DNA of 64,000 nucleotides from Gemmatimonadaceae bacterium. Its GTDB lineage: Bacteria > Gemmatimonadota > Gemmatimonadetes > Gemmatimonadales > Gemmatimonadaceae. How positions within the stretch are numbered: the stretch's first letter is position 1; the number at the start of each line of letters is the position of its first letter. The notes beneath the pieces were generated by a model. That model saw nothing but the letters and a program-made list of their open reading frames with translations. It was not told the origin of the DNA and did no database searches. The translations under genes and the position numbers were made by a program. Of this stretch, positions 19,494-47,444 are shown piece after piece. The stretch lies in the NCBI GenBank assembly GCA_013361335.1, contig JABFYH010000115.1, positions 1 to 64,000 on the forward strand, in the 5' to 3' direction.

Positions 19494-19496
19494 CCG

Positions 19497-21053: not shown

Positions 21054-21055
21054 TC

Positions 21056-30486: not shown

Positions 30487-31257
30487 TCACCAGGTCTTCC
30501 ATGGCGCCCGCCCGTGCTCCCACAGGTCGTTGAGCACGTTCCGGTCGCGGACCGTGTCCATGCACTGCCAGTAGTCGTGCAGCCGGTGCGCGAAGAGCTG
30601 CCCGTCCGCGGCGAGGCGCTCGAGCGGCTGCTCCTCGAGCACCGTCTCGTCGCCCTCGATGTAGTCGAAGATGCCGGGCTCGAAGACGAAGAATCCCCCG
30701 TTGATCCACCCCTCCGACGTCTGCGGCTTCTCCTTGAACTCCACGACGCGATCGCCGTCGAAGCCGAGGGCACCGAAGCGTGCGGTGGGACGGACGGCCG
30801 TGACGGTGGCGAGCCCGCCATGTGACCGGTGGAACTCGAGCAGACGCGCGATGTCGATGCGCGCGACGGCGTCGCCGTAGGTCATCATGAAGGTCCCGTG
30901 CGGCCGCAGCTTGTGCTCGAGGCGCTTCAGGCGGCCGCCGGTCATCGTGCGCTCGCCGGTGTCCATCAGGTGCACGCGCCAGTCCTCGCCGCGCGCCTCC
31001 TCGAACTGCGTCACGCCGGACGAGAGGTCGACCACGCCGTCCCGGCTGCGAGCGTAGTAGTGCAGGAAGTAGTCGCGGATCACCTCGCCCTTGTAGCCGA
31101 GCGCGAGGACGAACTCCTTGAACCCCTGGGTGCCGTAGACGCGAAGCAGATGCCAGAGGATGGGGCGTCCGCCGATCTCGACCATCGGCTTCGGCTTGAT
31201 CTGCGTCTCCTCGGAGAGACGAGTCCCGAGGCCGCCGCAAAGGATGACCGTTTTCAT
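30487..31257 (-). CDS. rfbF: Glucose-1-phosphate cytidylyltransferase
   Basis: MKTVILCGGLGTRLSEETQIKPKPMVEIGGRPILWHLLRVY, FMMTYGDAV, INGGFFVFEP. Confidence 0.93.
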   Translation of the reverse strand: MKTVILCGGLGTRLSEETQIKPKPMVEIGGRPILWHLLRVYGTQGFKEFVLALGYKGEVIRDYFLHYYARSRDGVVDLSSGVTQFEEARGEDWRVHLMDTGERTMTGGRLKRLEHKLRPHGTFMMTYGDAVARIDIARLLEFHRSHGGLATVTAVRPTARFGALGFDGDRVVEFKEKPQTSEGWINGGFFVFEPGIFDYIEGDETVLEEQPLERLAADGQLFAHRLHDYWQCMDTVRDRNVLNDLWEHGRAPWKTW

Positions 31258-31285: not shown

Positions 31286-32422
31286 TCAGTCGGCGGGCGC
31301 GGCGAGGGCGCGGGCGAGCTCCTCGATCACCGTGTCGACGTCGGCGTCCGACAGGTCCACGTGCAGGGGCAGCGTGAGCAGCTCCTGATGCAGCTGGCGA
31401 GTCACGGGGAAACCGGCCGAGTCGGCGGCAAAGAGCGTGAGCGTGTGATTGGGCTTGTAGTGCACCCCCGTCTCGACGCCTCGCGTCCGCAGCGTGGCTT
31501 GCACGGCATCGCGCCGGCCGTCGAGGATGCGCACGGGTTGGATGTGCGGGACCACACCGGGCGCGGTCTCGAGCAGGGCGACGCCCGGGACGCCGGCGAG
31601 CCCGCGCCGGTAGCGCTCCGCGAGGGCGACGCGTCGTGGAGCGAACTCCCCGTCGAGCCGGCCGAGCTGTACCCGCCCGATCGCCGCCATGATGTTGCTC
31701 ATGTGGTATCGCCAGCCCGGCTGCGTGACGTCGAAGTCCCAGCTCCGTTCGCCGCGATACCGCGCGTCGGTGTCGCGCTGCACGCCGAGCAGGCGCGCAT
31801 CCTCGACGGACTGGCGGACGCGAGGGTCGGCGGTGACGACCGCACCCCCCTCGCCGCAGGTGATGTTCTTGATGCCGTCGAAGCTGAAGCAGATCACGTC
31901 GCCCTCGGCGCCGATCGGGATGCCGTCGCGCGTCCCGCCGAAGGCATGCGCCGCGTCCTCGATCACGCGGAGGCCGTGCGCGCGCGCGAGCGCGTAGACG
32001 CCGGTGACGTTCGGCAGGTACCCGGCGTAGTGGACCGGCATGATCGCGCGGGTGCGCGGCGTGAGGCGGCGTGCCGCATCATCCAGGGCGATCGTGGCCG
32101 TGGCGAGGTCCGCATCGCAGGCGACGGGTGTCGCGCCCGTGGCGCGAATCGCCTGGAAGCAGGACACGAAGGTGAGGGAGGGCACCAGCACCTCGTCGCC
32201 GGGGCCGATGCCGCACGCCTGCACCGCCAGCTGCAGGGCGGCCGTGCCCGTGGCCACGGAGGTGACCGACATCCGGGGGCCGAGATATCGCTCGAGCTCC
32301 TCCTCGAACGCCCGGGTGTCCGCGCCCATCCCGAGGTACTCCCGCTCGAGGACCGTGCTCACCGCCGCCCGTTCAGCGGGTCCCATCGCGCACTTGGACA
32401 GCCTGATGGACGTGCGACTCAA
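31286..32422 (-). CDS. DegT/DnrJ/EryC1/StrS aminotransferase
   Basis: SVATGTAALQLAVQA, GDEVLVPSLTFVSC, VIEDAAHAFGG, CFSFDGIKNITCGEGGAVVT; TTG start at 32422 is a guess, ATG at about 32387 is an alternative. Confidence 0.88.
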   Translation of the reverse strand: MSRTSIRLSKCAMGPAERAAVSTVLEREYLGMGADTRAFEEELERYLGPRMSVTSVATGTAALQLAVQACGIGPGDEVLVPSLTFVSCFQAIRATGATPVACDADLATATIALDDAARRLTPRTRAIMPVHYAGYLPNVTGVYALARAHGLRVIEDAAHAFGGTRDGIPIGAEGDVICFSFDGIKNITCGEGGAVVTADPRVRQSVEDARLLGVQRDTDARYRGERSWDFDVTQPGWRYHMSNIMAAIGRVQLGRLDGEFAPRRVALAERYRRGLAGVPGVALLETAPGVVPHIQPVRILDGRRDAVQATLRTRGVETGVHYKPNHTLTLFAADSAGFPVTRQLHQELLTLPLHVDLSDADVDTVIEELARALAAPAD

Positions 32423-32582
32423 TGCGCCTGCCGTGGTGGGAGTCGAGGAGGAGCCGGGAAGTGTAATCGCGCGCTCCCGACGACGGAAGTTCGCGCGCGT
32501 GTGGCGACCCTTGCCCGTCGACCGTGCGCATGGCCAGTATTCCGGCTCCGCAGCGCTCGCGCAGGGCAGACACGGCAGGGAC

Positions 32583-33359
32583 ATGAACGGACGACTGAAG
32601 ACCCGCATCGCGGCGCGTGAAGTCACGATCGGCACGTGGATGAACATCGGTCACGCGGCGGTCGCGGAGATCATGGCCGACGCCGGTTTCGACTGGCTCG
32701 TGATCGATCTCGAGCACACGGCCATCACGATCCGCGAGGCGGAGGAGCTCATCCGGATCGTCGACCTCAAGGGGGTGACGCCGCTCGTGCGCGTCAGCGC
32801 GAACGATCCCGTGCAGATCAAGCGCGTGCTCGATGCGGGAGCGGGCGGGGTGATCGTGCCGATGGTCAACAGTGCCGCCGACGCGGCCGCGGCGGTGCGG
32901 GCGGTGAAGTACCCGCCGGTGGGCACCCGCGGCGTCGGGATCGGTCGCGCGCACCGGTACGGCCCGGGCTTCGCCGAGTACGAGTCGACGGTGAACGAGT
33001 CGACGATCGTCGTCGCGCAGATCGAGCACAAGGACGCGATCGCGAACCTCGGCGAGATCCAGGGCACGCCCGGCATCGACGCGACGATCATCGGTCCGTA
33101 CGACCTGTCCGCGTCCGTCGGGCGGCCAGGGCTGCTCGACGATCCGGTCGTGGTGGCGCTGCTGCGCCGGTACGAAGCTGATTCAAAGGCCGCCGGCAAG
33201 CCCCTCGGCGTGCATGTGGTCCCGCCCCGGATCGAGCTGCTGCAGGAGAAGATCGCCGCGGGCTACACCTTCCTCGCCTACAGTGTCGACTTCCTGTTCC
33301 TGGGCGAGGCGTGCCGAGGGGATCTGGCCCGGCTGCGCGCGCCGCGTGGCGGTGACTAG
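32583..33359 (+). CDS. HpcH/HpaI aldolase family protein (pyruvate aldolase type)
   Basis: GTWMNIGHAAVAEIMADAGFDWLVIDLEHTAI, GAGGVIVPMVNSAADA, IIGPYDLSASVG. Confidence 0.88.
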   Translation: MNGRLKTRIAAREVTIGTWMNIGHAAVAEIMADAGFDWLVIDLEHTAITIREAEELIRIVDLKGVTPLVRVSANDPVQIKRVLDAGAGGVIVPMVNSAADAAAAVRAVKYPPVGTRGVGIGRAHRYGPGFAEYESTVNESTIVVAQIEHKDAIANLGEIQGTPGIDATIIGPYDLSASVGRPGLLDDPVVVALLRRYEADSKAAGKPLGVHVVPPRIELLQEKIAAGYTFLAYSVDFLFLGEACRGDLARLRAPRGGD

Positions 33360-33418
33360 ATTTGACCGGCGCCCGCAGTCGCGGCGCCCCGCCGGTCCCA
33401 CTTCTGGAGCTCCTCGTA

Positions 33419-34201
33419 ATGCACGTCGTCGGATTCATCGCCGCCCGGATGGCGTCGACCCGATATCCTGGCAAGCCGTTGGCGCCGATTCGCGGTGTGC
33501 CGATGATCGGCCACGTGTTCCACCGCGCTCGGCTCGCGCGCACGCTCGACGACGTCGTCGTGGCGACGTGCGACGACGCGATTCTGGAGTACTGCGACGG
33601 CATCGGCGCCATGGGCATCCGGACTCGCGACACTCACGAGCGGGCGACGGATCGCATCGCCGAGGCGCTCCCGTACTACGAGGAGGCGACCGGACACCGC
33701 GTCGACGTGGCGGTGCTGGTGCAGGGCGACGAGCCGATGCTCGTGCCCGAGATGCTCGACGAGCTCGTGGCCCCGATGCGCGCCGACGCGCTGTCGATCG
33801 GGAACCTCATCAGCCCGATCGGCAGCGCCGAGGAGTTCGAGGATCCCAACACGGTCAAGGCGGTGCGCGATCGCGACGACTTCGCGCTGTACTTCTCTCG
33901 CGAGGCGATCCCCTCGCGCGCGAAGTACTCGCGCGCCGTGCCGATGTGGAAGCAGCTCGGCCTCATCGCCTTCCGCCGCGACGCGCTGCTGGACTACACC
34001 CAGCTCGCGCCGACGCCGCTCGAGGAGATCGAGTCGGTGGACATGAACCGCGTCCTCGAGCATGGCCGCCGGATCAAGCTCGTGGAGACCCGGCACCGCA
34101 CGACCGCGGTGGACACGCCGGGCGACCTGGCGCGAGTCGACGCGCTCATGGCGAACGACCCGCTGATGGCGACGTACGCCGCCCGGAGCGCCGCGCGATG
34201 A
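33419..34201 (+). CDS. CMP-sugar synthetase, KdsB-like cytidylyltransferase
   Basis: VGFIAARMASTRYPGKPLAPIRGVPMIGHVFHRA, VQGDEPMLVPEML, SREAIPS, LGLIAFRRDAL. Confidence 0.82.
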   Translation: MHVVGFIAARMASTRYPGKPLAPIRGVPMIGHVFHRARLARTLDDVVVATCDDAILEYCDGIGAMGIRTRDTHERATDRIAEALPYYEEATGHRVDVAVLVQGDEPMLVPEMLDELVAPMRADALSIGNLISPIGSAEEFEDPNTVKAVRDRDDFALYFSREAIPSRAKYSRAVPMWKQLGLIAFRRDALLDYTQLAPTPLEEIESVDMNRVLEHGRRIKLVETRHRTTAVDTPGDLARVDALMANDPLMATYAARSAAR

Positions 34202-35184
34202 AGGAGGCCGAGATCCGCAGCCGGACGGCCCACAACACCTACCTGGCTCTGGTGAGCGCGGACGCGGAACGGCTCGCGCAGGACCACTCGGCCTTTGCCG
34301 CGATCGACTGTCCATGCTGCGGCGGGCGATCCATCATCGAGGAGTTCCAGAAGGCCGGCTTTCGCTACGTGAGCTGCGAGTCGTGCGCGACCTTGTTCGT
34401 CAACCCGCGCCCGACGTTCGACTCGCTGATGGCGCTCTACGCCGACTCGCCATCGACCCGGTACTGGGTCGAGGAGTTCTTCAAGCCGATGGCCGAGGCG
34501 CGGCGCGCGCGGATCTTCCGGCCCCGCGCGCAGTACGTGGCCGAGCATTTTCCCGACGTCGCCCGTGGCCGGGTGGGTGACATCGGTGCCGGCTTCGGGC
34601 TGTTCCTCGAGGAGCTGCAAGCCCTCTGGCCGGCGGCGAACCTCGTCGCCATCGAGCCGTCGGCCGACATGGCGGCCATCCTCCGCACGAAGGGGATCCC
34701 GGTCGTCGAGCAGATGCTGGAGCAGGTGCCGCCGAGCGAGGCGGGCTTCGACCTGCTCACCGCCTTCGAGCTGTTCGAGCATCTCCACGACCCGGCGGGC
34801 TTCCTGCGCCACGTCGCGCGGCTGCTGCGGCCGGGCGGGGTGCTGTATCTCACCACGCTGAGCGGGTTCGGCTTCGACATCCAGGTGCACTGGGCGAGCT
34901 CGAAGAGCGTGTCGCCGCCGCATCATCTCAACTTCGCCAATCCCGCGTCCATGGCACGGCTGCTCGAGCGCACCGGGTTCGACGTGATCGAGATCGCGAC
35001 GCCAGGAGAGCTGGACTGGGACATCGTCGAAGGCAACTGGCAGCAGGAGGGGATCGATCCGGGGCGGCTGTGGCGCACCGTCTCCCGGCACGGCGGGGAC
35101 GACGCGAAGCGCCGGCTGCAGGGATGGATCCGGGAGAGCGGCTTCAGCTCCCACCTGCGCGCCGTCGCGCGCCGGCGAGGGTGA
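34198..35184 (+). CDS. SAM-dependent methyltransferase with N-terminal zinc ribbon
   Basis: CPCCGGRSIIEEFQKAGFRYVSCESCATLFVNPRP, VGDIGAGFGLFLEEL, LLTAFELFEHLHDP; ATGA overlap upstream. Confidence 0.83.
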   Translation: MKEAEIRSRTAHNTYLALVSADAERLAQDHSAFAAIDCPCCGGRSIIEEFQKAGFRYVSCESCATLFVNPRPTFDSLMALYADSPSTRYWVEEFFKPMAEARRARIFRPRAQYVAEHFPDVARGRVGDIGAGFGLFLEELQALWPAANLVAIEPSADMAAILRTKGIPVVEQMLEQVPPSEAGFDLLTAFELFEHLHDPAGFLRHVARLLRPGGVLYLTTLSGFGFDIQVHWASSKSVSPPHHLNFANPASMARLLERTGFDVIEIATPGELDWDIVEGNWQQEGIDPGRLWRTVSRHGGDDAKRRLQGWIRESGFSSHLRAVARRRG

Positions 35185-36230
35185 CCGTGAAGCCTCCCCT
35201 TCGCGTCGGTGTGGCGGGGTACGGCGTCGTGGGTCGGCGGCGCCGGCAGGTCGTCGACGCCAATCCGCTCATGAAGACGGTCGCCGTCAGCGACATCACC
35301 TTCGCCGACGCGCCGCTCGAGGACAGCGCGGTGTACGTCGAGTCGTCGTGGGAGCGGCTGCTCGATCACGAGCTCGACGTCCTCATCGTGAGCCTACCCA
35401 ACCACATCGCGCCCGACGCGACGATCGCCGGGCTCGAGCATGGGCTGCACGTGTTCTGCGAGAAGCCGCCCGGCCGGTCCGTGGCGGACATCCGCCGCGT
35501 CCGCGCGGTGGAGCAGGCGCATCCCGGGCAGCGGCTCAAGTACGGCTTCAACCATCGCTACCACGACTCGGTCATCGAGACCAAGCGCATCATCGAGTCG
35601 GGGCGCTACGGGCGGGTGATCAACGTCCGCGGCGTGTACGGCAAGAGCTCGATCATTCCCTTCTCGGGCGGGTGGCGCTCCGAGCGGACGGTCGCCGGCG
35701 GCGGCATCCTGCTCGATCAGGGCATCCACATGCTCGACATGATCCGCTACTTCTGCGGCGACTTCGACGAGGTCCAGAGCTTCGTGTCGAACGGCTACTG
35801 GAAGCACGACGTCGAGGACAACGCGTACGCGCTGATGCGCTCGCGGCACGGCGTGGTGGCGATGATTCATTCGACGGCGACGCAGTGGCGCCACACCTTC
35901 CGCCTGGAGGTCACGCTCGAGGAGGCGCTGCTCGAGCTGACGGGGATCCTGTCCGGCTCCAAGAGCTACGGCGAGGAGCGCCTCACCGTGGTCCCACGAA
36001 AGGACGGCTCCGCGGTGGGGGCCCACGAGGAGACGACGACGCAGTATCTTGATGACCACTCCTGGAAGGACGAGATCGAGGAGTTCGCGGACGTTCTGCT
36101 GACGGGGGCGCCGGTCCTTCACGGAACCAGCTACGACGCGGAGCGGGTGATGGAGCTGGTGTTTCGCATCTATCACGCCGACTCGCGATGGCGCGAGGCG
36201 TACGACATTCCCGATCCTCGCGTGCCGTAA
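35181..36230 (+). CDS. Gfo/Idh/MocA family oxidoreductase
   Basis: LRVGVAGYGVVGRRR, GLHVFCEKPPGRSVADI, GGGILLDQGIHMLDMIRYF; GTGA overlap upstream. Confidence 0.9.
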   Translation: MTVKPPLRVGVAGYGVVGRRRRQVVDANPLMKTVAVSDITFADAPLEDSAVYVESSWERLLDHELDVLIVSLPNHIAPDATIAGLEHGLHVFCEKPPGRSVADIRRVRAVEQAHPGQRLKYGFNHRYHDSVIETKRIIESGRYGRVINVRGVYGKSSIIPFSGGWRSERTVAGGGILLDQGIHMLDMIRYFCGDFDEVQSFVSNGYWKHDVEDNAYALMRSRHGVVAMIHSTATQWRHTFRLEVTLEEALLELTGILSGSKSYGEERLTVVPRKDGSAVGAHEETTTQYLDDHSWKDEIEEFADVLLTGAPVLHGTSYDAERVMELVFRIYHADSRWREAYDIPDPRVP

Positions 36231-36247
36231 CACCCCAAGCCGATCCC

Positions 36248-36868
36248 ATGCCAAGCAAGCTCGAGGACCTGGCGCGCAGCGCCGCGTCACCCGCCGCGTT
36301 CGCGCGCGGATATTTCGACTATCTCAAGTCCGTGCTGGACGCCGTGTCGCCGGCGGCGATCGAGGCGCTCGTCGGTGAGCTCGAGGCCGTCCGGGCCGAG
36401 GGGCGGACGATGTTCATCGCCGGCAACGGCGGCTCCGCCACCACCGCAACCTCCATGGCGAACGACCTGGGGTTCGACGTCGTGAAGAAGAGCGGCACGA
36501 CGGTGCCCTTTCGCCTGCTCGCCCTGACCGACAGCAACGCGGTGCTGACGGCGGCCGCCAACGACATCGGGTACGAGCAGGTCTTCGTCACCCAGCTCGT
36601 GATGCACTGGCGCGAGGGCGATCGGCTGCTGCTCATCTCCGCCAGCGGCAACTCGCCGAACCTGATCGAGGCGGCCAAGTGGGTGAAGGCCCGGGGCGGC
36701 CGCGTCACGTCGTTCCTCGGCTTCGACGGCGGCCGGCTGCGCGAGCTGTCCGACGTGGTGGTCCACGTGCCGACGGTCAAGGGGGAGTACGGGCCGGTGG
36801 AGGACGCGCATCTGATCATCAACCACGTGCTCGCGCACTGGTTCCAGGTGCGCCTGCGCGGCAGCTGA
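36248..36868 (+). CDS. SIS-domain sugar isomerase (phosphoheptose isomerase GmhA-like)
   Basis: GRTMFIAGNGGSATTATSMANDLGFD, LLISASGNSPNLIEAAKWVKARGG, EDAHLIINHVL. Confidence 0.82.
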   Translation: MPSKLEDLARSAASPAAFARGYFDYLKSVLDAVSPAAIEALVGELEAVRAEGRTMFIAGNGGSATTATSMANDLGFDVVKKSGTTVPFRLLALTDSNAVLTAAANDIGYEQVFVTQLVMHWREGDRLLLISASGNSPNLIEAAKWVKARGGRVTSFLGFDGGRLRELSDVVVHVPTVKGEYGPVEDAHLIINHVLAHWFQVRLRGS

Positions 36869-37608
36869 TGCAGCCCGACTTTGCGGGCCGGGTGGCGCTC
36901 GTCACCGGCGGCACCCGCGGCATCGGGCTCGCCGTCGCCGAGCAGCTCGCCGAGCGTGGCGCCACCGTGCACGTCACCGGGCGCGACGCGACCCGCGAGG
37001 AGTCGCGCGCCCTCGGCCGGCGGAGTGGGTGGACCTTTCACGCCGTCGACTACGCCGATCCGGCCGCCGTCGGCACGTTCATCGACGCCGTCGTGGCAAC
37101 GACGCCGTTCGACGTGCTCGTCAACAACGCCGGCATCAACCGCGTCCGGCCGATCGCGCAGACGCGGCTGGACGACTGGCGCGAGCTGCAGGCGGTCAAC
37201 CTCGAGGCGCCCCTTCGCCTCACGATGGCGGTGGCCGACGGCATGCAGCGGCGGCGATACGGCCGCATCGTCAACATCAGCTCGATCTTCGGCGTCGTGA
37301 GCAAGGCGCATCGCGCGCTCTACTCCATCTCCAAGTTCGGGATCCGCGGGCTCACCATTGCCTCCGCGCTCGAGCTGGCGCCCCACGGCGTGCTGGTGAA
37401 CGCCATGGCCCCCGGGTTCGTGCGCACCGAGCTGACGGCGAGCATCCTGAGCGAGGCGGAGCAGGAAGCGCTCGCGCGACAGGTACCCATGGGCCGCTTC
37501 GCCGAGGCGGGGGAGATCGCGCGGGTGATCTGCTTCCTCGCCAGCGAGGCGAACAGCTACATCACCGGCCAGACGATCGTCGCCGACGGGGGCTTCACGA
37601 GTGGCTGA
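36868..37608 (+). CDS. Short-chain dehydrogenase/reductase
   Basis: ALVTGGTRGIGLAVAEQL, VLVNNAGINR, NISSIFGVVSKAHRALYSISKFGIRGL, TGQTIVADGGF. Confidence 0.92.
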   Translation: MQPDFAGRVALVTGGTRGIGLAVAEQLAERGATVHVTGRDATREESRALGRRSGWTFHAVDYADPAAVGTFIDAVVATTPFDVLVNNAGINRVRPIAQTRLDDWRELQAVNLEAPLRLTMAVADGMQRRRYGRIVNISSIFGVVSKAHRALYSISKFGIRGLTIASALELAPHGVLVNAMAPGFVRTELTASILSEAEQEALARQVPMGRFAEAGEIARVICFLASEANSYITGQTIVADGGFTSG

Positions 37609-38668
37609 GCCGCTGCTGATCCGGTCGCGGCTCTGGGACTACCCGGTGCGCTTCACCGCCGACGTGGCGGGTGCGCTCGACGCTGCGGCGGAGGAGCCCG
37701 GCGTGCTGGTGATCGACGCGACGGTGCGGGAGCGATTCGGCGTCGGCCGGTGGCGCGACGACCGTGTGATCACCATCCCGGCACACGAGGAGACGAAGAC
37801 CCTCGCCGGCAGTGGCGACCTTCTGGCGCAGCTGGTGGCCGGCGGCATGCGCCGCAGCCATCGCCTCGTCGTCGTCGGCGGGGGGATCGTGCAGGACGTG
37901 GCCAGCTTCGCGGCCTCCGTGCTCTATCGCGGCGTATCGTGGGTGTTCTTTCCCACGACCCTTCTCGCGCAGTGCGACAGCTGCATCGGCGGCAAGACGT
38001 CGATCAACCACGCCGGGGCCAAGAACATCCTCGGCAACTTCCATCCGCCGCGGGAAGTGGTGATCGACACCGGCTTCCTGGAGACGCTGCCGGACGCCGC
38101 GATCGGGTCGGGGATCGGCGAGATGCTTCACTACTTCGTCTACGCGGACAGCCCCTTTCTCGAGCGCACGGCACGCGAGCACGACGCGCTGCTCGGCGAC
38201 CGATCCCGCCTGGCCCCCTTCATCGACGAAAGCCTCCGGATCAAGCAGCGCGTCATCGAGCAGGACGAGTTCGAGCAGGGGGAGCGGGCGAAGTTCAACT
38301 ACGGGCACACCTTCGGCCATGCGCTCGAGGCGGCGACGGCGTACGCCGTGCCGCATGGCTACGCCGTGACGGTGGGGATGGACCTGGCGAACTTCGTGAG
38401 CCGCGAGATCGGGCTCATGGCGCCGGACACCTTCGACGCGCTGCACGCGGTGCTTCGCGTGAACTTTCCGGCGTACGACTGGCGCACGCTCGATCTCGCG
38501 AGCTACGCGACGCTCCTGACGCGGGACAAGAAGAACACCGCGACGCAGGTCCGCTGCATCCTCGCCGAGGGGCCCGGACGGCTCCGGGTGCACCCGCTGC
38601 GGCTCCGCGAGGACGGCCTCGATCGGCTCGTGCAGCGCTACTTCACGTCGGAGCTGCCGTATGCCTGA
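37601..38668 (+). CDS. AroB-like sugar-phosphate cyclase (3-dehydroquinate synthase family, divergent)
   Basis: VVVGGGIVQDVASFAASVLYRGVSWVFFPTTLLAQCDSCIGGKTSINHAGAKNILGNFHPP, GSGIGEMLHYF, FNYGHTFGHALEA. Confidence 0.87.
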   Translation: MAEPLLIRSRLWDYPVRFTADVAGALDAAAEEPGVLVIDATVRERFGVGRWRDDRVITIPAHEETKTLAGSGDLLAQLVAGGMRRSHRLVVVGGGIVQDVASFAASVLYRGVSWVFFPTTLLAQCDSCIGGKTSINHAGAKNILGNFHPPREVVIDTGFLETLPDAAIGSGIGEMLHYFVYADSPFLERTAREHDALLGDRSRLAPFIDESLRIKQRVIEQDEFEQGERAKFNYGHTFGHALEAATAYAVPHGYAVTVGMDLANFVSREIGLMAPDTFDALHAVLRVNFPAYDWRTLDLASYATLLTRDKKNTATQVRCILAEGPGRLRVHPLRLREDGLDRLVQRYFTSELPYA

Positions 38669-39644
38669 CGGCGCGCGCGTTCTCATCACCACGGTGCCAT
38701 TCGGCGAGGTGGACGACACGCCGCTGCGGCTGCTCCGCGGCGCCGGCATCGACTTCACCGTCAATCCGCTCGGCCGCAAGCTGAAGCCCGCCGAGGCGGC
38801 CGAGATGGTGCGCGACTACGACATCGTGATCGCCGGTACCGAGCCGATCACCGACGACGTGATGGCCCGCGCGCCGCGGCTCAAGCTGATCAGCCGGGTG
38901 GGAGTCGGGCTCGATTCGGTGGATCTGCTGGCGGCGCGGCGCCGCGGCATCGGCGTGTCGTACACGGCCGACGCTCCCGCCGCCGCCGTGGCGGAGCTGA
39001 CGATCGGCCTCATCATCGACGTGCTACGGTCCGTCAGCGTGGCCAGCGCAAGCCTGCGCGCGGGGCGATGGGACCGGCTGTTCGGCCGTCGCATCGCCGA
39101 GTGCACGGTGGGCGTCGTGGGCATGGGGCGCATCGGGCGACGGGTGGTCCGTCACCTGTCGGCATTCGGCGGGCGCGTGCTGGTGTGCGACCGGGTGCTC
39201 GACGAAGGGTGGGCCCGGCAGTGGGGAGCGACGCCGGCCACCTTCGACGAGATCCTCCGCGAGTCGGACGTGGTCACGCTGCATGTCCCGCTGGCCCCGC
39301 AGACGCGGGGAATGATCGGGGCGGAGGAGATCGCGCGCATGCGGCCCGAGGCGGTGGTCGTGAACACGGCGCGGGGGGGTGTGGTGGACGAGGCCGCGCT
39401 GCTCGCGGCCCTGCGCGCCGGACGGCTGGCGGGCGCGGCGGTGGACGTGTTCGAGGAAGAGCCCTACCATGGGCCGCTGGCCGCCGAGCCTCGCTGCCTC
39501 GTCACGCCGCATCTCGGCTCGATGTCGCGGGACTGCCGCGCGCGAATGGAGATCGAGGCGACGGAGGAAGCCATCCGCTTCGCGCGTGGCGAGCCGCTGC
39601 AGCAATCCGTTCCCCCCGAGGAGTACGCGATCCGTGAGGGGTGA
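38661..39644 (+). CDS. D-isomer specific 2-hydroxyacid dehydrogenase (phosphoglycerate dehydrogenase-like)
   Basis: LKLISRVGVGLDSVDL, VGVVGMGRIGRRVVRHL, VVNTARGGVVDEAALLAAL, VTPHLGSMS. Confidence 0.9.
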   Translation: MPDGARVLITTVPFGEVDDTPLRLLRGAGIDFTVNPLGRKLKPAEAAEMVRDYDIVIAGTEPITDDVMARAPRLKLISRVGVGLDSVDLLAARRRGIGVSYTADAPAAAVAELTIGLIIDVLRSVSVASASLRAGRWDRLFGRRIAECTVGVVGMGRIGRRVVRHLSAFGGRVLVCDRVLDEGWARQWGATPATFDEILRESDVVTLHVPLAPQTRGMIGAEEIARMRPEAVVVNTARGGVVDEAALLAALRAGRLAGAAVDVFEEEPYHGPLAAEPRCLVTPHLGSMSRDCRARMEIEATEEAIRFARGEPLQQSVPPEEYAIREG

Positions 39645-39650
39645 GCGGGA

Positions 39651-40529
39651 CTAGATGCCGTGTGCGGCCAGGTGGCGGAGGTAGTTCCCGTACACGCTCG
39701 CTGGCGCCTCGGTCGCCAGCCGGGCGAAGGCGTCGGCGTCGATGAAACCGCGGTGCAGGGCGATCTCCTCGAGGCAGGCGATCTTGGCCCCCGTGCGCTC
39801 CTCGATGGCCTCGATGAAGACGCCCGCCTTGAGCAGCGACTCCGCGGTGCCGGTGTCGAGCCAGGCGATGCCGCGCCCGAGCGTCTCCACGTGCAACGTG
39901 CCGGCGTCGAGGTAGACGCGATTGAGGTCGGTGATCTCGAGCTCTCCGCGCGACGAGGGCGCAAGCTCGCGCGCGATGCGAATCACGTCGCCATCGTAGA
40001 AGTAGATGCCGGGAACGGCGTACCGGCTGCGGGGCGTCTTTGGCTTTTCTTCGAGGCTCACCGCCTTGCCCGCCGCGTCGAGCTCGACGACCCCGTAGTG
40101 GGTCGGGTCGGCGACGGCGTAGCCGAAGATGGTGGCGCCGTTGGTCCGCGCGGCCGCGCGCTGGAAGATCTGCGCGAGCCCTGCGCCGTGGAAGAGATTG
40201 TCCCCGAGGATGAGCGCGGACGGCGAGGCGCCGACGAAGTCGGCGCCGATCCGGAAGGCGTCGGCGAGGCCGGCGGGGCGGGGCTGCTCGGCGTAGGCGA
40301 AGCGCATCCCGAGGCGCTCTCCCGTGCCCAGCAGCGCCTCGTACCGCGGCAGGTCCGTGGGGGTGGAGATGATGAGCACCTCCCGGATTCCCGTCAGCAT
40401 CAGGACGGAGAGCGGGTAGTAGATCATCGGCTTGTCGTAGACCGGCAGCAGCTGCTTGGTGACGCCGAGCGTTGCCGGATAGAGCCGGGTCCCGGAGCCG
40501 CCGGCGAGGATGATCCCTTTGCGATGCAT
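39651..40529 (-). CDS. rfbA: Glucose-1-phosphate thymidylyltransferase
   Basis: MHRKGIILAGGSGTRLYPATLGVTKQLLPVYDKPMIYYPLS, LILGDNLFHG, VSLEEKPKTPRSRYAVPGIYFYD. Confidence 0.95.
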   Translation of the reverse strand: MHRKGIILAGGSGTRLYPATLGVTKQLLPVYDKPMIYYPLSVLMLTGIREVLIISTPTDLPRYEALLGTGERLGMRFAYAEQPRPAGLADAFRIGADFVGASPSALILGDNLFHGAGLAQIFQRAAARTNGATIFGYAVADPTHYGVVELDAAGKAVSLEEKPKTPRSRYAVPGIYFYDGDVIRIARELAPSSRGELEITDLNRVYLDAGTLHVETLGRGIAWLDTGTAESLLKAGVFIEAIEERTGAKIACLEEIALHRGFIDADAFARLATEAPASVYGNYLRHLAAHGI

Positions 40530-40875
40530 GTCGGTTGGCGGTGAGGTGGACGATAATCTCGACATCGCGCGCCGGTTGCGGCAGTGGCGGTCGTCCGGGG
40601 GCGTTGCGCGGGCGGGCTGAATCTGCGTGCCGACCTTGAGATGGCCCGTCCCCGAGGGCATCTTTCCGCCCTGGATTTCGCGTCGCGGCTGCTGCGTTTC
40701 CGCGCGGCCGCGCGGTGCCGGGACGCCGCCGGCCACCGCTTCGCCGGCATCCTGTGGCGACTCGGCGGGCCGCCCCGCGACCATCGAGGATGCTGCTCTT
40801 GCGAACACCGGAACTCGGGATGGATGAACGTACACGGCGGGGTGGCTCGCGTCGCGGGTGCCGGTGGGTCACGGC

Positions 40876-42015
40876 ATGAGTGACACGCTGGTGCGCGACG
40901 AGCGGGGTGCCGTCGGGGACGCGCCACCGCGCGCCGCGTCGCCGCGTTCCGCGCGCTCGCCCGCCGCGGGCGCGGAGGATCTCACGCTCGTCCGGGTGAT
41001 GACGCAGCTGCTCCGCGATCGTCGTCGGATCCTGTTCTGGACGGCGCTGGTCGGCACCATCGCGCTCGTGATCGCGCTCGTTACCCGGCCCGTCTACTCG
41101 GCCGACGCCTCGTTCACTCCGCAGGTCGCCGACGCCGGCCGCTCCGGCCTCTCGTCGCTCGCCGGCCAGCTCGGACTGAGCATGCCCGGCAGCGCGGCGT
41201 CACAGTCGCAGTTCTATGCGGAGCTGCTGCGCTCTCATGCCCTGCTCGCGCCCCTCGCCACCGACACGCTCACGGTGCCGGAGCTCGGTCCGGGGCCGCG
41301 GACCTTTGCGTCCCTCTTCAAGGCAGAGGGCTCGCCGGAGCGCGTCGCCGAGGTGTTCGTCGAGCAGGCCACGCGCGCCTCGGCGGTGCACGTGAGCATC
41401 CAGACCGGCACGGTCAGCCTTCGCGTCACCACGCCGTGGCGGAGCGTGTCGCTGGCGCTGGCCAACCGGATGCTGCGCGGCGTGAACGAGTACAACGTGC
41501 GGTCGCGTCAGTCGCAGGCGGCGGAGGAGCGCCGCTTCGTCGAGGCGCGGCTGGCCGTGGCCCGCCAGGAGCAGCGCGCGGCCGAAGACCGGCTCGAGGG
41601 GTTCCTGCGGGCGAATCGGCAGTTCGTGTCGCCGGAGCTCACCTTCGCGCGCGAGCGGCTGCAGCGCGAGGTCAATCTGCAGCAGGCGCTGGTGAGCACC
41701 CTGGCCCAGTCGTACGAGGACGCGCGGATCCGCGAGGTGCGGGACACCCCGGTCATCACCATCGTCGAGTCGCCCTCGGCGTCCACGCTGCCCGACCCGC
41801 GCCGCCGGGCGTTCAAGGTGGCGGTCGGACTGCTGCTCGGCGCGCTGATCGGCATCGTCATCAGCCTGGCGAAGGACGCCATGGCGCGGCGGTCCGCGGT
41901 GGGCGATACGGAAACCGACGAGTTTCTGCGGCAGCTTCGCGCGGCCCGCGCCGATCTGGGCCGGTTGTTTCGCCGCCGGCGAGCGGGGAAGGCGTCGAGT
42001 GGCCAGCAGGTCTAG
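40876..42015 (+). CDS. Wzz/chain-length determinant family protein (set 2)
   Basis: TM at ILFWTALVGTIALVIALVTRPVYSADASFTPQ, coiled coil, C-terminal TM AFKVAVGLLLGALIGIVISLAKD. Confidence 0.8.
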   Translation: MSDTLVRDERGAVGDAPPRAASPRSARSPAAGAEDLTLVRVMTQLLRDRRRILFWTALVGTIALVIALVTRPVYSADASFTPQVADAGRSGLSSLAGQLGLSMPGSAASQSQFYAELLRSHALLAPLATDTLTVPELGPGPRTFASLFKAEGSPERVAEVFVEQATRASAVHVSIQTGTVSLRVTTPWRSVSLALANRMLRGVNEYNVRSRQSQAAEERRFVEARLAVARQEQRAAEDRLEGFLRANRQFVSPELTFARERLQREVNLQQALVSTLAQSYEDARIREVRDTPVITIVESPSASTLPDPRRRAFKVAVGLLLGALIGIVISLAKDAMARRSAVGDTETDEFLRQLRAARADLGRLFRRRRAGKASSGQQV

Positions 42016-42048: not shown

Positions 42049-43626
42049 GTGACCGCCGGTCTCACGCCCCCGCCCCCGGCGCCGCCGCCGACCAGGACGA
42101 CGGCGCCCGAGGCGCCCGACGTGCTGGCCGCCGTCCTGCCGCGTCTGCGCGAGGCAGGGGCCCACACCCTGGTGTACGGAATCGGGTCGGCGCTCCAGGC
42201 GGCGTCGGGATTCATCCTCATCCCGCTGTACACCCGCCACTTCGATGCGGCGACGTACGGGGTGTTCGCGCTCCTCACCCTCGTGAGCACCTTCGGGGCG
42301 ACGGCGTTCTCCTTCGGCGCCCCGTCCGCGCTGGCCCGGTCGTATTTCGACTACACCGAGCCCGCGGACCGGAAGGGCGTCGTGGCGACGTCGATCTATC
42401 TCGTGCTCGCCGGAGGGCTGCTCGCGATGGGGATCACGATCGCCGCGTCCGAGGCGATCTCCCAACGGATCATCGGCAGTCCCGCCTACGGGCCGCACCT
42501 CCGCCTGATCCTCGCGATGGCCATCCTCGCGCAGGTCGGCGGCGTGCTGTTGGTGCTCGCCCGATTCAAGCGCCGGTCGATGCTGGTGGTCGGCACCAAT
42601 CTGGTCGCGCTCGTCGGGACGTCCGTGCTGATCTGGTACCTGCTCACGTCGTGGCAGCTCGGCCTGATGGCGCCGATCATCGGCATGCTGGTGTCGCAGG
42701 GCGTGCAGGTGCTGTGGCTCGGCTGGGCGCTGCGCGACGACATCGGCGTGCGCGGCATGCGGCGCGAGGTGCCGGTGCAGCTCGCGTACGGGCTGCCGGC
42801 GGCGGCGGTCGGGGTGCTCTACTACGCCCTGGACTCGGTGGACCGGGTGCTGCTGAACAAGCTCACCGACACGTCGGCCGTGGGCGTGTACTCGCTGGGG
42901 TATCGCATCGCCTTCGTCATCAACGTGCTGCTCGTCCAGCCCTTCGGCCAGATCTGGACGCCGATGCGCATGGAGTATCGGCACGACGCGCACGCGCGCC
43001 GGCTGTTCGCCGTGGTCCTGCGGTATTTCCTCCTGGCGGGGCTCGTCGGCTCGCTGCTCATCGGCACCTTCTCGGGCGAGCTGGTCGCCCTCGTGGCCGG
43101 TGGCGCGCAGTACCGGGAGGCCTACCGCGTGGTGGGACTGGTCATGCTCGGCTACGTCGCGTACGGCGCGCTCGGCATCGTCGACGCGGGCATCATCTTC
43201 GAGCGCAAGGTGCACTTCCACCTCGTCAACTTCGCCGTGGCGCTCGCGCTCAACGTCGCGCTCAACTTCCTGCTGATCCCGCGGCTCGGCATCGTCGGGG
43301 CCGGCCTCGCGACCCTGCTCACGTACGCGGTGGTGACCATCGTTGCAGGCGCGCTGTCCGTTCGCCTGTACCGCGTGCCGTGGGAGCTCGGGCGCATCAC
43401 GATGTGCGTGCTGCTCGCCGTGGGTGCGCTCCTCGCCGCCGCCTTCCTGCCCATCGGCACGCCGGTCGGCGTGGCGATCAAGGTCGGTCTCTTGGCCGCG
43501 GTCCTGCCGCTGCTGTGGTTCGCCGGCACGGAGCCCGCGGAGCGCGCCGTCGCGGCGTCCGTCACGCGAGTCGCGGCCGCGTGGCTCGCGCGGCCGTTCA
43601 CCCGGCAACCGCTTCCCGAGCCATGA
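42049..43626 (+). CDS. Oligosaccharide flippase (Wzx-like, set 2)
   Basis: TLVYGIGSALQAASGFILIPLYTRHFDAATYGVFALLTLVSTF, multi-TM. Confidence 0.85.
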   Translation: MTAGLTPPPPAPPPTRTTAPEAPDVLAAVLPRLREAGAHTLVYGIGSALQAASGFILIPLYTRHFDAATYGVFALLTLVSTFGATAFSFGAPSALARSYFDYTEPADRKGVVATSIYLVLAGGLLAMGITIAASEAISQRIIGSPAYGPHLRLILAMAILAQVGGVLLVLARFKRRSMLVVGTNLVALVGTSVLIWYLLTSWQLGLMAPIIGMLVSQGVQVLWLGWALRDDIGVRGMRREVPVQLAYGLPAAAVGVLYYALDSVDRVLLNKLTDTSAVGVYSLGYRIAFVINVLLVQPFGQIWTPMRMEYRHDAHARRLFAVVLRYFLLAGLVGSLLIGTFSGELVALVAGGAQYREAYRVVGLVMLGYVAYGALGIVDAGIIFERKVHFHLVNFAVALALNVALNFLLIPRLGIVGAGLATLLTYAVVTIVAGALSVRLYRVPWELGRITMCVLLAVGALLAAAFLPIGTPVGVAIKVGLLAAVLPLLWFAGTEPAERAVAASVTRVAAAWLARPFTRQPLPEP

Positions 43627-44129
43627 CCATGCTCTCGCAGGCCGCCGCGTGGTTCGTTCGCCGCACGCGCCCGTACGCGCGCGCGCTGGCGTACGCGTAT
43701 GGCGTCCGGCTCGATTGGCACTGCGAGCCGACCGGGCAGCATCCGCTGCAGATCGAAGGCGGCAGCGCGCAGGCCACGGCGAACATCCCGCGTAGCGTGC
43801 GCTTCAACACCCGCAGCGGCGCCATCTTCGTCGGACGGGACACGGTCTTCGGCGAGGACGTGCAGGTGCTGACCGGCAAGCATCTCGCGCTGTGGGAGGC
43901 TGAGCGCGCCGGCGTCCCGCTCCACCACGTCCCGGAGAGCGGACGCGAGATCCGGATCGGGCGAGGCTGCTACATCGGGACTGGCGCGATCCTCATCGGA
44001 CCGTTGGTCGTCGGCGACCATGCGGTGATCGGGGCAGGGAGCGTCGTGACGCACGACGTGCCGCCCCGCACCTTCGTCGCCGGCGTGCCGGCGCGGGTGA
44101 TCCAGGCGCACGTGGAGGTCGGGTCGTGA
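43623..44129 (+). CDS. Hexapeptide-repeat (LbetaH) acyltransferase
   Basis: IRIGRGCYIGTGAILIGPLVVGDHAVIGAGSVVTHDVPPRTFVAGVPARVI; ATGA overlap upstream. Confidence 0.82.
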   Translation: MTMLSQAAAWFVRRTRPYARALAYAYGVRLDWHCEPTGQHPLQIEGGSAQATANIPRSVRFNTRSGAIFVGRDTVFGEDVQVLTGKHLALWEAERAGVPLHHVPESGREIRIGRGCYIGTGAILIGPLVVGDHAVIGAGSVVTHDVPPRTFVAGVPARVIQAHVEVGS

Positions 44130-44536
44130 CGCTGCCCGTCGAATGGCATCGATTGGTGGTGCGCGGCGACGCGCGCGGCACGCTCATTCCGGTGGAGCTC
44201 GGGCGCGACGTCCCCTTTCCGACGGCGCGCGTCTACTTCATCTCGGGCACCATGGCCGGGGTCCGGCGCGGCTTCCACGCCCACCGCGCGTTGACGCAGC
44301 TCGCGGTGTGCATCACCGGCTCGTGCCGCTTTCTGCTCGACGACGGCGCATCGAAGGTGGAGGTCGCGCTCGACGCGCCCGGCTGCGGCGTGCTCGTGCG
44401 TCCGATGATCTGGCACGAGATGTACGACTTCTCCAGCGACTGCGTGCTGGCGGTGTTCGCCGATGGTCCCTACGACGAGTCGGACTACGTGCGCGACTAC
44501 GCGGAGTTCGCCTCGCTGGCCGGAGCGGCGCGATGA
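44126..44536 (+). CDS. dTDP-sugar 3,4-ketoisomerase (FdtA/QdtA, WxcM-like cupin)
   Basis: VYFISGTMAGVRRGFHAHRALTQLAVCITGSCRFLLDDG, VRPMIWHEMYDFSSDCVLAVFADGPYDESDYVRDY. Confidence 0.88.
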   Translation: MTLPVEWHRLVVRGDARGTLIPVELGRDVPFPTARVYFISGTMAGVRRGFHAHRALTQLAVCITGSCRFLLDDGASKVEVALDAPGCGVLVRPMIWHEMYDFSSDCVLAVFADGPYDESDYVRDYAEFASLAGAAR

Positions 44537-45096
44537 TCCACGCGATGGCCGACGTGCAGAGCGACCAGATCGGCCCGGACACCCGGATCTGGCAGTACAG
44601 CATCGTGCTGCCCGGCGCCGTGATCGGCGCCGGCTGCAACGTGAACGCGCACTGCCTCATCGAGGGGGGCGCGCGCCTCGGCGATCGGGTGACGATCAAG
44701 TGCGGGGTCTACGTGTGGAATGGGGTGAACCTCGCCGACGACGTGTTCGTCGGGCCCAATGCCACCTTCACCAACGACCTGCATCCCCGCTCGCGACGCC
44801 CACCGGCGCAGTGGGTGCCCACCGTCGTGCAGCGCGGCGCGTCCATCGGCGCCGCGGCGACGATCGTCGCCGGCGTGACGATCGGCGAGTACGCGCTCGT
44901 CGGCGCGGGCAGCGTTGTGACCCGGGACGTTGGCGCGTACCGGGTCGTGGTGGGCGTGCCGGCGCGACCACAGGGATGGATCTGCCGCTGTGCGGAGCGC
45001 CTCGGCGAATCGCTCGTTTGTGGCGCGTGCGGCCGGCGCTACGTTCGGCGAGGAGACGGGTTGGCGCCGCTTGAGCCGACCGAGCCGGCGTCATGA
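44533..45096 (+). CDS. LbetaH N-acetyltransferase (FdtC/WbbJ-like) with C-terminal zinc-ribbon-like tail
   Basis: IGPDTRIWQYSIVLPGAVIGAGCNVNAHCLIE, NDLHPRSRR, IVAGVTIGEYALVGAGSVVTRDV, ICRCAERLGESLVCGACGRRY. Confidence 0.85.
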   Translation: MIHAMADVQSDQIGPDTRIWQYSIVLPGAVIGAGCNVNAHCLIEGGARLGDRVTIKCGVYVWNGVNLADDVFVGPNATFTNDLHPRSRRPPAQWVPTVVQRGASIGAAATIVAGVTIGEYALVGAGSVVTRDVGAYRVVVGVPARPQGWICRCAERLGESLVCGACGRRYVRRGDGLAPLEPTEPAS

Positions 45097-46262
45097 CCCA
45101 CGTCCCCGTCGTCCCGCCGCCTACCATTTCGTTGCCACCCGACGCGCCCCGGATGATCCCCTTCCTCGATCTCAAGCGCATCAACGCGCGCGACCGCGAC
45201 CGCCTCCTCGCCGCGATGGCCCGCGTGCTCGATTCGGGCTGGTACATCCTGGGGCAGGAGGTGCGCGAGTTCGAGCGCCGCTTCGCCGAGTACACCGGAG
45301 TGCCGCACGCGATCGGGGTCGCCAACGGGATGGACGCGCTCACGCTCGTCTTTCGCGCGCTGCGGGAGCTGGGCCGGATCGCGGCGGGCGACGAGGTGCT
45401 CGTCCCGTCCAACACCTACATCGCCACGATCCTCGCGCTGACCGAGAATCGTCTGACGCCGGTGCTCGTCGAGCCGGATCCGCGCACCTTCAACATGGAC
45501 CCGGCGCGCGTCCGCGAGGCGATCACCCCGCGCACGCGTGCGATTCTCACCGTCCACCTGTACGGCCGACTCGGCTGGTCGCCGGAGCTGCAGGCGGTCG
45601 CGGACGCCGCCGGCGTTCCGATCGTCGAGGACGCGGCGCAGTCGCAGGGTGCGGCGCTCGACGGCCGCCGCGCCGGATCGCTCGGCCTGGCCACCGGGAC
45701 GAGCCTCTATCCGGGGAAGAACCTGGGCGCGCTGGGGGACGCGGGCGTCGTCACCACCTGGGATGCGCCCCTCGCCGAGGCCGTGCGGACGATCGCCAAC
45801 TACGGGTCGCAGCGGAAATACGAGAACCGGTACAAGGGGGTCAACAGCCGGCTCGACGAGCTGCAGGCGGCAATGCTGGTGGTGAAGCTCGACCGGCTCG
45901 ACGCCGACAACGCCCGGCGGCGCACGATCGCCGCGCGCTATGGCGCGGGCATCCGCAACCGGGCGATCGCTCTCCCGGAGCCGGGCCCGGAAGGCGCGCA
46001 CGTATGGCATCTGTACGTCGTGCGCGCCGACGATCGCGACGAGTTGCAGCGGCACCTCGCCGCGCACGGCATCCAGACGCTCGTGCATTATCCGACCCCG
46101 CCTCACCAGCAGCCGGCGTACGCGGAATGGGCGGACCGGAGCTACCCGATCGCCGAGGCCATCCATCGCACGGTGCTCAGCCTTCCGATGGACCCGACGA
46201 TGAGCGACGCGGACGTGGACGCCGTCATCGCGACGTGCAACACCTTCCGCGGCGCCACCTGA
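45093..46262 (+). CDS. DegT/DnrJ/EryC1/StrS aminotransferase (FdtB-like)
   Basis: MIPFLDLKRINA, LDSGWYILGQEVREFERRFAEYTG, VPIVEDAAQSQGA, SLYPGKNLGALGDAG. Confidence 0.88.
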   Translation: MTHVPVVPPPTISLPPDAPRMIPFLDLKRINARDRDRLLAAMARVLDSGWYILGQEVREFERRFAEYTGVPHAIGVANGMDALTLVFRALRELGRIAAGDEVLVPSNTYIATILALTENRLTPVLVEPDPRTFNMDPARVREAITPRTRAILTVHLYGRLGWSPELQAVADAAGVPIVEDAAQSQGAALDGRRAGSLGLATGTSLYPGKNLGALGDAGVVTTWDAPLAEAVRTIANYGSQRKYENRYKGVNSRLDELQAAMLVVKLDRLDADNARRRTIAARYGAGIRNRAIALPEPGPEGAHVWHLYVVRADDRDELQRHLAAHGIQTLVHYPTPPHQQPAYAEWADRSYPIAEAIHRTVLSLPMDPTMSDADVDAVIATCNTFRGAT

Positions 46263-46325: not shown

Positions 46326-47444
46326 ATGGACAGCGGGTCTCCCATCCCCACCGCGTTCGGCGGACAGCTCTCGGGCAAGCGGGTGCTGCTCACGGGGCAC
46401 ACGGGCTTCAAGGGCTCGTGGCTGGCGGCGTGGCTCACCGAGCTCGGTGCGCACGTCACCGGCTTCTCCGACGGCATCCCGAGCGAGCCGGCGCACTTTC
46501 AGATCGCCGGGATGGCCGATCGGGTCGCGCATCGCCTGGGTGACGTGCGCGATCGCGACGCCGTCGCGCGCGTGATCGGGGAGGTGCAGCCGGACGTCGT
46601 GTTTCACCTGGCCGCGCAGGCTCTCGTGCGGCGTTCCTTCGAGGATCCCGCGCGGACCTTCGAGACGAACACGCTCGGCACTCTCAACGTGCTGGAGGCC
46701 GTTCGCCAGGCGGGCGGCGTTGAGGCCCTGGTCCTCGTCACCTCCGACAAGGCCTACCGCAACGTCGAATGGGTGTGGGGCTATCGGGAAAACGACGCGC
46801 TGGGCGGCGAAGATCCGTACAGCGGCTCGAAGGGCGCGGCGGAGCTGGTCGCGTACTCGTACATGAAGTCCTACTTCGAGACGGGCGAGACGAAGGTCGC
46901 GACGGCGCGCGCGGGCAACGTCATCGGTGGCGGCGACTGGGCGGAGGATCGGATCGTGCCGGACTGCGTGCGCGCCTGGTCGGCACGGCAGACGGTCACG
47001 TTGCGTCACCCGCACGCGACGCGCCCGTGGCAGCACGTGCTCGAGCCGCTGAGCGGATATCTCTGGCTGGCCGCGCGCCTGCTGGCGAACGACCCGCGCG
47101 CGCGCGGCGAGTCGTTCAACTTCGGGCCTGACGCGAACGTGTCGGCGCCCGTGGTCACGCTGATCGAGCGGCTGGGCGATCGGTGGGCCGAGGCCAGGTG
47201 GGTGGTGGATCCCGCGGGGCTCGCCGGCCGACCGGAGGCGCGGCTGCTCAAGCTCTCCTGCGACAAGGCGCTGCTCGATCTCCAGTGGCATGCGACGCTC
47301 GGCTTCGACGAGACGGTCGCGTTCACCGCCGACTGGTATCGGACGTTCTACGCGGGCGATGCGGACGTCTGGGGGCTGACGACGCGACAGATCGGCCACT
47401 ACACGGCACTCGCGGCCGAGCGCGGGCTGGCGTGGGCCAGCTAG
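46326..47444 (+). CDS. rfbG: CDP-glucose 4,6-dehydratase
   Basis: VLLTGHTGFKGSWLAAWLTELGAHVTGFS, VTSDKAYRNVEWVWGYRENDALGG, PWQHVLEPLSGYL. Confidence 0.94.
   Translation: MDSGSPIPTAFGGQLSGKRVLLTGHTGFKGSWLAAWLTELGAHVTGFSDGIPSEPAHFQIAGMADRVAHRLGDVRDRDAVARVIGEVQPDVVFHLAAQALVRRSFEDPARTFETNTLGTLNVLEAVRQAGGVEALVLVTSDKAYRNVEWVWGYRENDALGGEDPYSGSKGAAELVAYSYMKSYFETGETKVATARAGNVIGGGDWAEDRIVPDCVRAWSARQTVTLRHPHATRPWQHVLEPLSGYLWLAARLLANDPRARGESFNFGPDANVSAPVVTLIERLGDRWAEARWVVDPAGLAGRPEARLLKLSCDKALLDLQWHATLGFDETVAFTADWYRTFYAGDADVWGLTTRQIGHYTALAAERGLAWAS

Follow-up and report, generated by a model that had tools for sequence, protein, structure and literature searches.

What does a run of sugar-modifying genes make when it combines a shikimate-type cyclase with an enzyme that activates acids with cytidine monophosphate (CMP)? 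The question is raised by a stretch of 64,000 nucleotides from a Gemmatimonadaceae bacterium (assembly GCA_013361335.1, contig JABFYH010000115.1, positions 1 to 64,000; hereafter the window). At 32583-39644, eight genes on the forward strand encode an HpaI-type aldolase, a KdsB-like CMP-transferase, a methyltransferase, a Gfo/Idh oxidoreductase, a GmhA-like SIS isomerase, a short-chain dehydrogenase/reductase (SDR), an AroB-like cyclase, and a D-2-hydroxyacid dehydrogenase (HADH). A first-pass annotation had read these genes, together with a divergent DegT aminotransferase, as a candidate pathway for an unusual ulosonate or cyclitol. The answer favored here, held at a little less than an even chance, is a transferable surface-polysaccharide module that makes an acidic sugar loaded onto CMP, with a ring closure like that of 3-dehydroquinate synthase (DHQS).

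The gene run and its housekeeping counterparts

Profile searches of the predicted proteins located all nine families named in the first-pass annotation, each by its own match and at the place given there (Table 1). The run had been described as tight, with overlaps of 1-8 nt; this is so at five of the seven junctions within the module (4, 4, 1, 8, and 8 nt), but gaps of 59 nt and 17 nt separate HpaI from KdsB and Gfo/Idh from SIS, respectively. Start codons were picked from reading frames and overlaps, those of the HpaI and KdsB-like genes being the least certain. The statement that no phosphoenolpyruvate (PEP)-condensing synthase is present holds for the window, in which the DAHP_synth and NeuB models have no match; their only matches are on other contigs of the genome.

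The host genome assembly (3.75 Mb in 230 contigs, 84% complete), searched family by family, contains another aroB on contig C230, a kdsB and a KdsA-type gene no more than 3 kb apart on C136, and a GmhA with a better match on C12. The cyclase, CMP-transferase and SIS enzyme of the module are therefore paralogues. The earlier claim that the combination is unlike the known pathways for 3-deoxy-D-manno-oct-2-ulosonic acid (Kdo), sialic acid, legionaminic acid, and shikimate is borne out.

The proposed pathway

Family chemistry suggests a substrate, an order of steps, and a carbocyclic product. C7 sugar 7-phosphates are substrates of both the GmhA and the DHQS families. The SIS enzyme would convert sedoheptulose 7-phosphate (S7P) to an aldo-heptose 7-phosphate, which would be oxidized at C1 by the Gfo/Idh enzyme, giving a heptonate, and at C2 by HADH, giving a hept-2-ulosonate 7-phosphate. 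The AroB-like enzyme would then carry out oxidation, phosphate elimination, and ring closure as in DHQS, swapping the ring oxygen for C7. Because DHQS puts C7 of a C7 ulosonate in the place of its ring oxygen, this step would formally yield a carbocyclic ulosonic-acid analogue. The SDR would reduce the ring ketone, and the KdsB-like enzyme would add CMP; the KdsB/NeuA family normally attaches CMP at the equivalent hydroxyl. The methyltransferase and HpaI, the latter present in about a third of loci, would tailor the product. The fuller proposal, that a carbocyclic ulosonic-acid analogue is activated with CMP and transferred by sialyltransferase-type enzymes, in a module common to bacteria and T4-like phages, is possible but somewhat doubtful.

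The cyclase and its active site

The model nearest by far to the window cyclase is TIGR04425 (376 bits, cut-off 400); the protein scores 266 bits against the aroB equivalog TIGR01357, below the cut-off of 305. Among 298 genomes sampled from the phylum, only three carry a copy above the TIGR04425 cut-off (L033-L035), in neighborhoods similar but not identical to that of the window, and trees place the window cyclase in the same clade as these relatives. In a careful tree of 55 cellular clade copies, among them the window and its three phylum relatives, and a set of housekeeping AroB proteins, all 55 are separate from the housekeeping set; the cyclases of L091, L100, L106, and L111 lie on the same side of the tree, at the base of the clade.

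Residue positions in the active site, numbered as in Aspergillus DHQS, were transferred by alignment. In the alignment R130, D146, K152, K161, N162, E194, K250, R264, N268, H271, and H287 are kept in all 55 cellular copies and in all 80 copies from viral contigs (described below), and H275 is kept in 54 of the 55 and in all 80. The window cyclase thus retains every aligned catalytic or carboxylate-handling position of DHQS except K197, which is histidine there and in 22 other cellular copies. K250, R264, and N268 presumably surround the substrate carboxylate in DHQS. Two annotated S7P cyclases used as references have M, K or S, D, and P at K250, R264, N268, and H275; the window cyclase has none of these substitutions. 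The DHQS-type residues are kept at positions that are changed in the S7P cyclases, which makes a C7 2-ulosonate 7-phosphate the probable substrate. On the same four positions the cyclitol route from S7P was rejected. A CMP-activated and/or carbocyclic sugar, as first proposed, is still the best reading, but the fingerprint speaks against a plain S7P cyclitol; given a carboxylate-type fingerprint, "ulosonate" and "carbocycle" are probably descriptions of one molecule rather than alternatives.

The partner enzymes

The KdsB-like protein passes two broader subfamily models in all, including PRK13368 (262 bits, cut-off 255), and falls below the cut-off of the kdsB equivalog TIGR00466 (150.7 bits, cut-off 155.2). 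Cassette copies retain the P-loop, the QGDEP motif, and the arginine following SR, but H185, the histidine of the HIGIYAYR motif that is invariant in KdsB, is missing from every copy that is complete at this position (L038 is truncated); the motif histidine is present in the KdsB of the same genome and in the solved KdsB structures shown. The LEQLR motif is replaced in the window, and in most cassette copies becomes a motif containing D (L053 differs). The SIS enzyme scores 80 bits against the gmhA model, far under its cut-off of 209; compared with the organism's own GmhA, the window group has S or H in place of H61, D in place of E65, and E in place of Q172, the residues of the window protein at H61/E65/Q172/H180 being S/D/E/H. 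The changes in the KdsB pocket and in the SIS metal site each follow a consistent pattern and count in favor of the proposed pathway.

All 33 cassette Gfo proteins have the EKP motif, and the solved structures nearest to Gfo/Idh are inositol 2-dehydrogenase, 1,5-anhydrofructose reductase, and glucose-fructose oxidoreductase. The window HADH, for which the nearest solved structure is 3-phosphoglycerate dehydrogenase, has R/E/H and GxGxxG motifs, and a zinc-ribbon-like motif occurs in 10 of 11 cassette methyltransferases.

Conservation of the module in bacteria

Scanning bacterial and archaeal genomes yielded at least 80 loci, and all cellular locus counts given here are lower bounds. The 55 loci of the cyclase clade divide into type A (42) and type B (13), and an SDR gene accompanies the cyclase gene in 54 of them. 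Type A loci contain SDR (41), Gfo (33), HADH (29), SIS (28), HpaI (14), and methyltransferase (11) genes. A PF02348 CMP-transferase is found in 32 type A loci, in overlapping categories of KdsB-like (21), NeuA-like (11), and cupin fusion (8), and in 23 of the 24 type A loci flanked by 9 kb or more on either side. The same scan yielded 25 housekeeping aroB loci, none of which has a CMP-transferase (32/42 versus 0/25; Fisher p 1e-10); these loci, many of them with short flanks, also lack HpaI, SIS, HADH, and methyltransferase genes; weak Gfo and SDR matches occur at one of them. The constant unit of the module is SDR, DHQS-like cyclase, and CMP-transferase.

All eight cassette families are present in Chlorobiaceae L040, Omnitrophota L041, and Nitrosomonadales L056. 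The families of the module recur around relatives of the cyclase, with HpaI and the methyltransferase being optional. Because the set recurs there and is absent around the 25 housekeeping aroB genes, its association is not chance: the module is conserved and moves horizontally, with variants in about a dozen bacterial phyla.

Type B loci (L073, L075-L083, L085, L087, and L088) combine the SDR-AroB pair with a thiamine pyrophosphate (TPP) enzyme in all 13 cases, an FGGY kinase in nine, and an HMGL-like enzyme in five, and none of the 13 has a CMP-transferase. Their hosts include Bacillota (e.g., Lachnospiraceae), Mycobacterium, and others.

Two further protein families accompany cassettes. TIGR04326 surface-carbohydrate proteins occur with ten (L056:15223-17124 and nine more loci); as a CMP-sugar transferase this family was set aside, the predicted fold being a generic GT-B at low coverage with no visible preference for CMP. 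PF01973 (MptE-like) proteins, which may be CMP-ulosonate transferases of the Maf kind, occur with KdsB-less cassettes in L035, L045, L046, L047 (Draconibacterium mangrovi), L049 (Mucilaginibacter segetis), and 17 viral loci.

Viral versions of the module

In IMG/VR, 101 contigs with relatives came to light, of which 80 were kept (L129-L208); at least this many viral contigs carry the SDR-AroB pair or the cyclase. The SDR gene accompanies the cyclase gene in 73 of the 80. The contigs fall into two types, 29 being of a cytidine triphosphate (CTP) type and 43 of a TPP type, and one is counted in both. The CTP type typically has the order sialyltransferase-like glycosyltransferase, cytidylyltransferase-cupin, SDR, AroB, class III aminotransferase, SIS, and epimerase; the TPP type often carries NeuB. 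The T4-like major capsid protein Gp23 is encoded by 8 of 30 of these viral contigs, versus 0 of 14 control genomes, and Terminase_6N by 7 of 24; the rest may be fragmentary or derive from host DNA. Among the matches listed for plasmid and phage records there are only housekeeping-type aroB genes or S7P cyclases. One cellular locus, L042, on a contig binned as a thaumarchaeon, has a viral-type gene set and nests in the viral clade beside L131; it is probably a mis-binned virus. In a joint tree built by a quick method, the group of the window and a viral CTP clade fall within one supported set.

The viral transferase gives weak but repeated matches to PF00777 (GT29), and all eight of its profile matches in the PDB are sialyltransferases. 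In a structural model (predicted local distance difference test score, pLDDT, 84), the 26 best Foldseek matches are sialyltransferases, with TM-scores of only 0.35-0.48. This transferase gene is found in 22 of 28 CTP-type loci versus 0 of 42 TPP-type loci (p 4e-13, the contig of both types being omitted). The minimal viral set of CTP-transferase, SDR, and AroB adjoins a sialyltransferase-like gene, which points to use of the product as a glycosyl donor and is counted in favor of the CMP-activated acidic sugar.

Points against the proposed product and alternative explanations

Several points count against this acidic sugar as proposed. A saturated carbocycle would lack the ring oxygen that normally makes a CMP-ulosonate reactive, so that, unless the product is not fully carbocyclic, it would need an allylic or other special feature for a sialyltransferase-type enzyme to transfer it. 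The SIS, Gfo, and HADH genes are missing at some loci, and most viral sets have neither Gfo nor HADH, so that the substrate must come by other means there. No GT29-like or PF01973-like transferase was found within 22000-50000 of the window. Lastly, retained DHQS residues indicate a similar pocket and do not show the substrate.

The alternative that survives best, although unlikely, makes HpaI the builder of the carbon chain: pyruvate and a C4 aldose 4-phosphate would be joined to form a 3-deoxy-hept-2-ulosonate 7-phosphate, an isomer of 3-deoxy-D-arabino-heptulosonate 7-phosphate (DAHP), with no PEP-dependent synthase, and the AroB-like enzyme would convert it to a dehydroquinate-like acid. 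HpaI-family aldolases do make 2-keto-3-deoxy acids, the metal and catalytic motifs (QIE, GPYDLS, VRV, and EH) are intact in all 14 cassette copies, and the DHQS-type active site of the cyclase would suit such a substrate; the HMGL-like enzyme of some TPP-type loci is another possible pyruvate aldolase. However, no more than 14 of the 42 type A loci contain HpaI, which is therefore not the obligatory chain builder. HpaI and an alternative pair, an aminotransferase with a second Gfo, rarely occur together (one locus has both, p 0.04), and viral loci have no HpaI match.

A second alternative, which is quite improbable, has the AroB-like enzyme eliminate phosphate without closing a carbocycle: the SDR would reduce the resulting 6-ketone, so that together they turn a 7-phosphate into a 7-deoxy ulosonic acid, to be activated with CMP and transferred like sialic acid. 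This would account for the near-constant SDR-AroB pairing in cellular and viral loci and would give a donor readily usable by a sialyltransferase-type enzyme, and the K197 to H change in part of the clade, including the window, is in keeping with it. All other cyclization residues are nevertheless retained. The final aldol closure of DHQS is presumably easy once phosphate is lost, so that some special feature would be required to prevent it.

There is little to recommend a split into two unrelated sugars, a cyclitol made by AroB, SIS, Gfo, and SDR and a separate ulosonic acid made by HpaI and KdsB. Textbook functions permit such a division, and different pathways do share polysaccharide loci, as shown here by the CDP- and dTDP-sugar genes (cytidine and deoxythymidine diphosphate, respectively); but the CMP-transferase tracks the SDR-AroB pair over phyla with or without HpaI and adjoins the pair on phages, and the fingerprint of the cyclase is unlike that of a cyclitol-forming S7P cyclase. 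That these are ordinary duplicated genes with housekeeping roles in the shikimate, Kdo, and heptose pathways, as their common families and Pfam names would allow, is scarcely credible and already contradicted by the organism's own aroB, kdsA/kdsB, and gmhA, by the separate clade or altered sites of the cassette copies, and by the rarity of copies above the TIGR04425 cut-off in the phylum.

Several known routes were also considered and rejected. The Kdo8N, legionaminic, and pseudaminic acid routes fell because the window has no KdsA/NeuB match. For the aminoshikimate route to 3-amino-5-hydroxybenzoic acid (AHBA), the reference aminodehydroquinate synthase (aDHQS) groups in trees with housekeeping-type DHQS, outside the cyclase clade. 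For bradyrhizose, a sugar fused to inositol, the paper on its 11-gene cluster names a dTDP-glucose 4,6-dehydratase and none of the searched families, and gives no link.

Neighboring genes

The module is flanked by genes of two other nucleotide-sugar branches (Table 1). The DegT aminotransferase, first taken for a member of the pathway, belongs with the CDP-glucose branch instead: it lies 28 nt upstream of RfbF in a reverse-strand unit with RfbF and an epimerase-like gene, and in L040, L048, and L065 close homologues occur together with counterparts of both these genes. On the other side is a dTDP-amino-sugar branch with RmlA, FdtA, a hexapeptide transferase, and a second DegT.

Table 1. Genes of the module and of the flanking sugar branches in the window.
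Product	Position	Strand	Profile match	Remark
HpaI-type class II pyruvate aldolase	32583..33359	+	PF03328, 9e-33	Optional module part
KdsB-like CMP-transferase	33419..34201	+	PF02348, PRK13368	Altered acceptor pocket
Class I S-adenosylmethionine methyltransferase	34198..35184	+	PF13489	N-terminal CxxC..CxxC zinc-ribbon-like motif; optional, putative tailoring
Gfo/Idh/MocA oxidoreductase	35181..36230	+	PF22725/PF01408	
GmhA-like SIS sugar-phosphate isomerase	36248..36868	+	PF13580	Changed metal site
SDR	36868..37608	+	PF13561	Constant cyclase partner
AroB-like sugar phosphate cyclase	37601..38668	+	TIGR04425, 376 bits	TIGR04425 clade
D-2-hydroxyacid dehydrogenase (HADH)	38661..39644	+	PF02826/PF00389	
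DegT aminotransferase	31286..~32437	-	PF01041, 312 bits	CDP-sugar branch, outside module
RfbF glucose-1-phosphate cytidylyltransferase	30487..31257	-	TIGR02623, 352 bits (above cut-off 300)	Outside module
Epimerase-like gene	Next after RfbF	-	PF00908	
CDP-glucose 4,6-dehydratase	46326-47444		TIGR02622, 458 bits	
RmlA	39651-40688	-		dTDP-amino-sugar branch
FdtA	44126-44536			dTDP-amino-sugar branch
Hexapeptide transferase	44506-45096			dTDP-amino-sugar branch
Second DegT	45093-46262			dTDP-amino-sugar branch

Wzi-like, Wzz-like, flippase, and O-antigen ligase/polymerase-like genes lie at 16911-23622, and a second Wzz-like gene (40858-42015) and a flippase gene (42049-43626) adjoin the cassette, so that two assembly systems may be fused in this locus. 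The same locus encodes a sulfotransferase-like protein (PF13469) at 47183-48478, hinting at a sulfated glycan. Between 30012 and 49712 the window has more in common with Chlorobiaceae L040 and Opitutaceae L065, both metagenome-assembled genomes, than the cassette: the flippase, the sulfotransferase-like gene, a GT-B-like protein, and the CDP-sugar genes are also found there, which suggests that the same glycan is made in different phyla.

Significance and comparison with known systems

No description of the gene set or pathway was found in the open-licence literature searched, which omits most subscription journals, and the product appears to have been identified by nobody so far. If the CMP-activated acidic sugar is correct, a shikimate-type ring closure would have been recruited for an activated surface sugar, a large uncharacterized clade that is easily mistaken for aroB would be explained, and a new acidic residue would be predicted in bacterial surface glycans; phages would be suggested to carry the genes for altering host or virion glycans. 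A carbocyclic analogue would moreover be a class of glycan building block without earlier description.

The window cyclase resembles AroB in fold family and, save for K197, in the aligned positions that handle nicotinamide adenine dinucleotide (NAD), metal, phosphate, and carboxylate. It differs in belonging to a separate clade found in surface-sugar rather than shikimate loci; this clade no longer has the E of HGE that follows the last metal histidine, and E260 is mostly D and L267 often F. The best curated model for the protein, TIGR04425 (AroB-related putative sugar phosphate phospholyase, cyclizing), is a hypothetical equivalog of NCBI without a function, and the window protein falls 24 bits under its cut-off. 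EboD of the ebo operon (PMC5133447), which is conserved and mobile, forms another uncharacterized DHQS-like clade, but its partners are a UbiA prenyltransferase and hydrolases, with no cassette genes.

S7P cyclase pathways share the superfamily and have in common with the module an S7P-related enzyme, here the nearby SIS isomerase; they differ at K250, R264, N268, and H275, and the CMP-transferase of the module takes the place of their kinase and nucleotidyltransferase. The pathways for CMP-Kdo and CMP-nonulosonates, which use KdsB/NeuA and sialyltransferase-type transfer, are matched by the PF02348 CMP-transferase and, on the phage versions, by GT29-like transferases; the window differs from them in having no KdsA or NeuB, in the changed acceptor pocket of its CMP-transferase, and in the addition of a DHQS-type cyclase.

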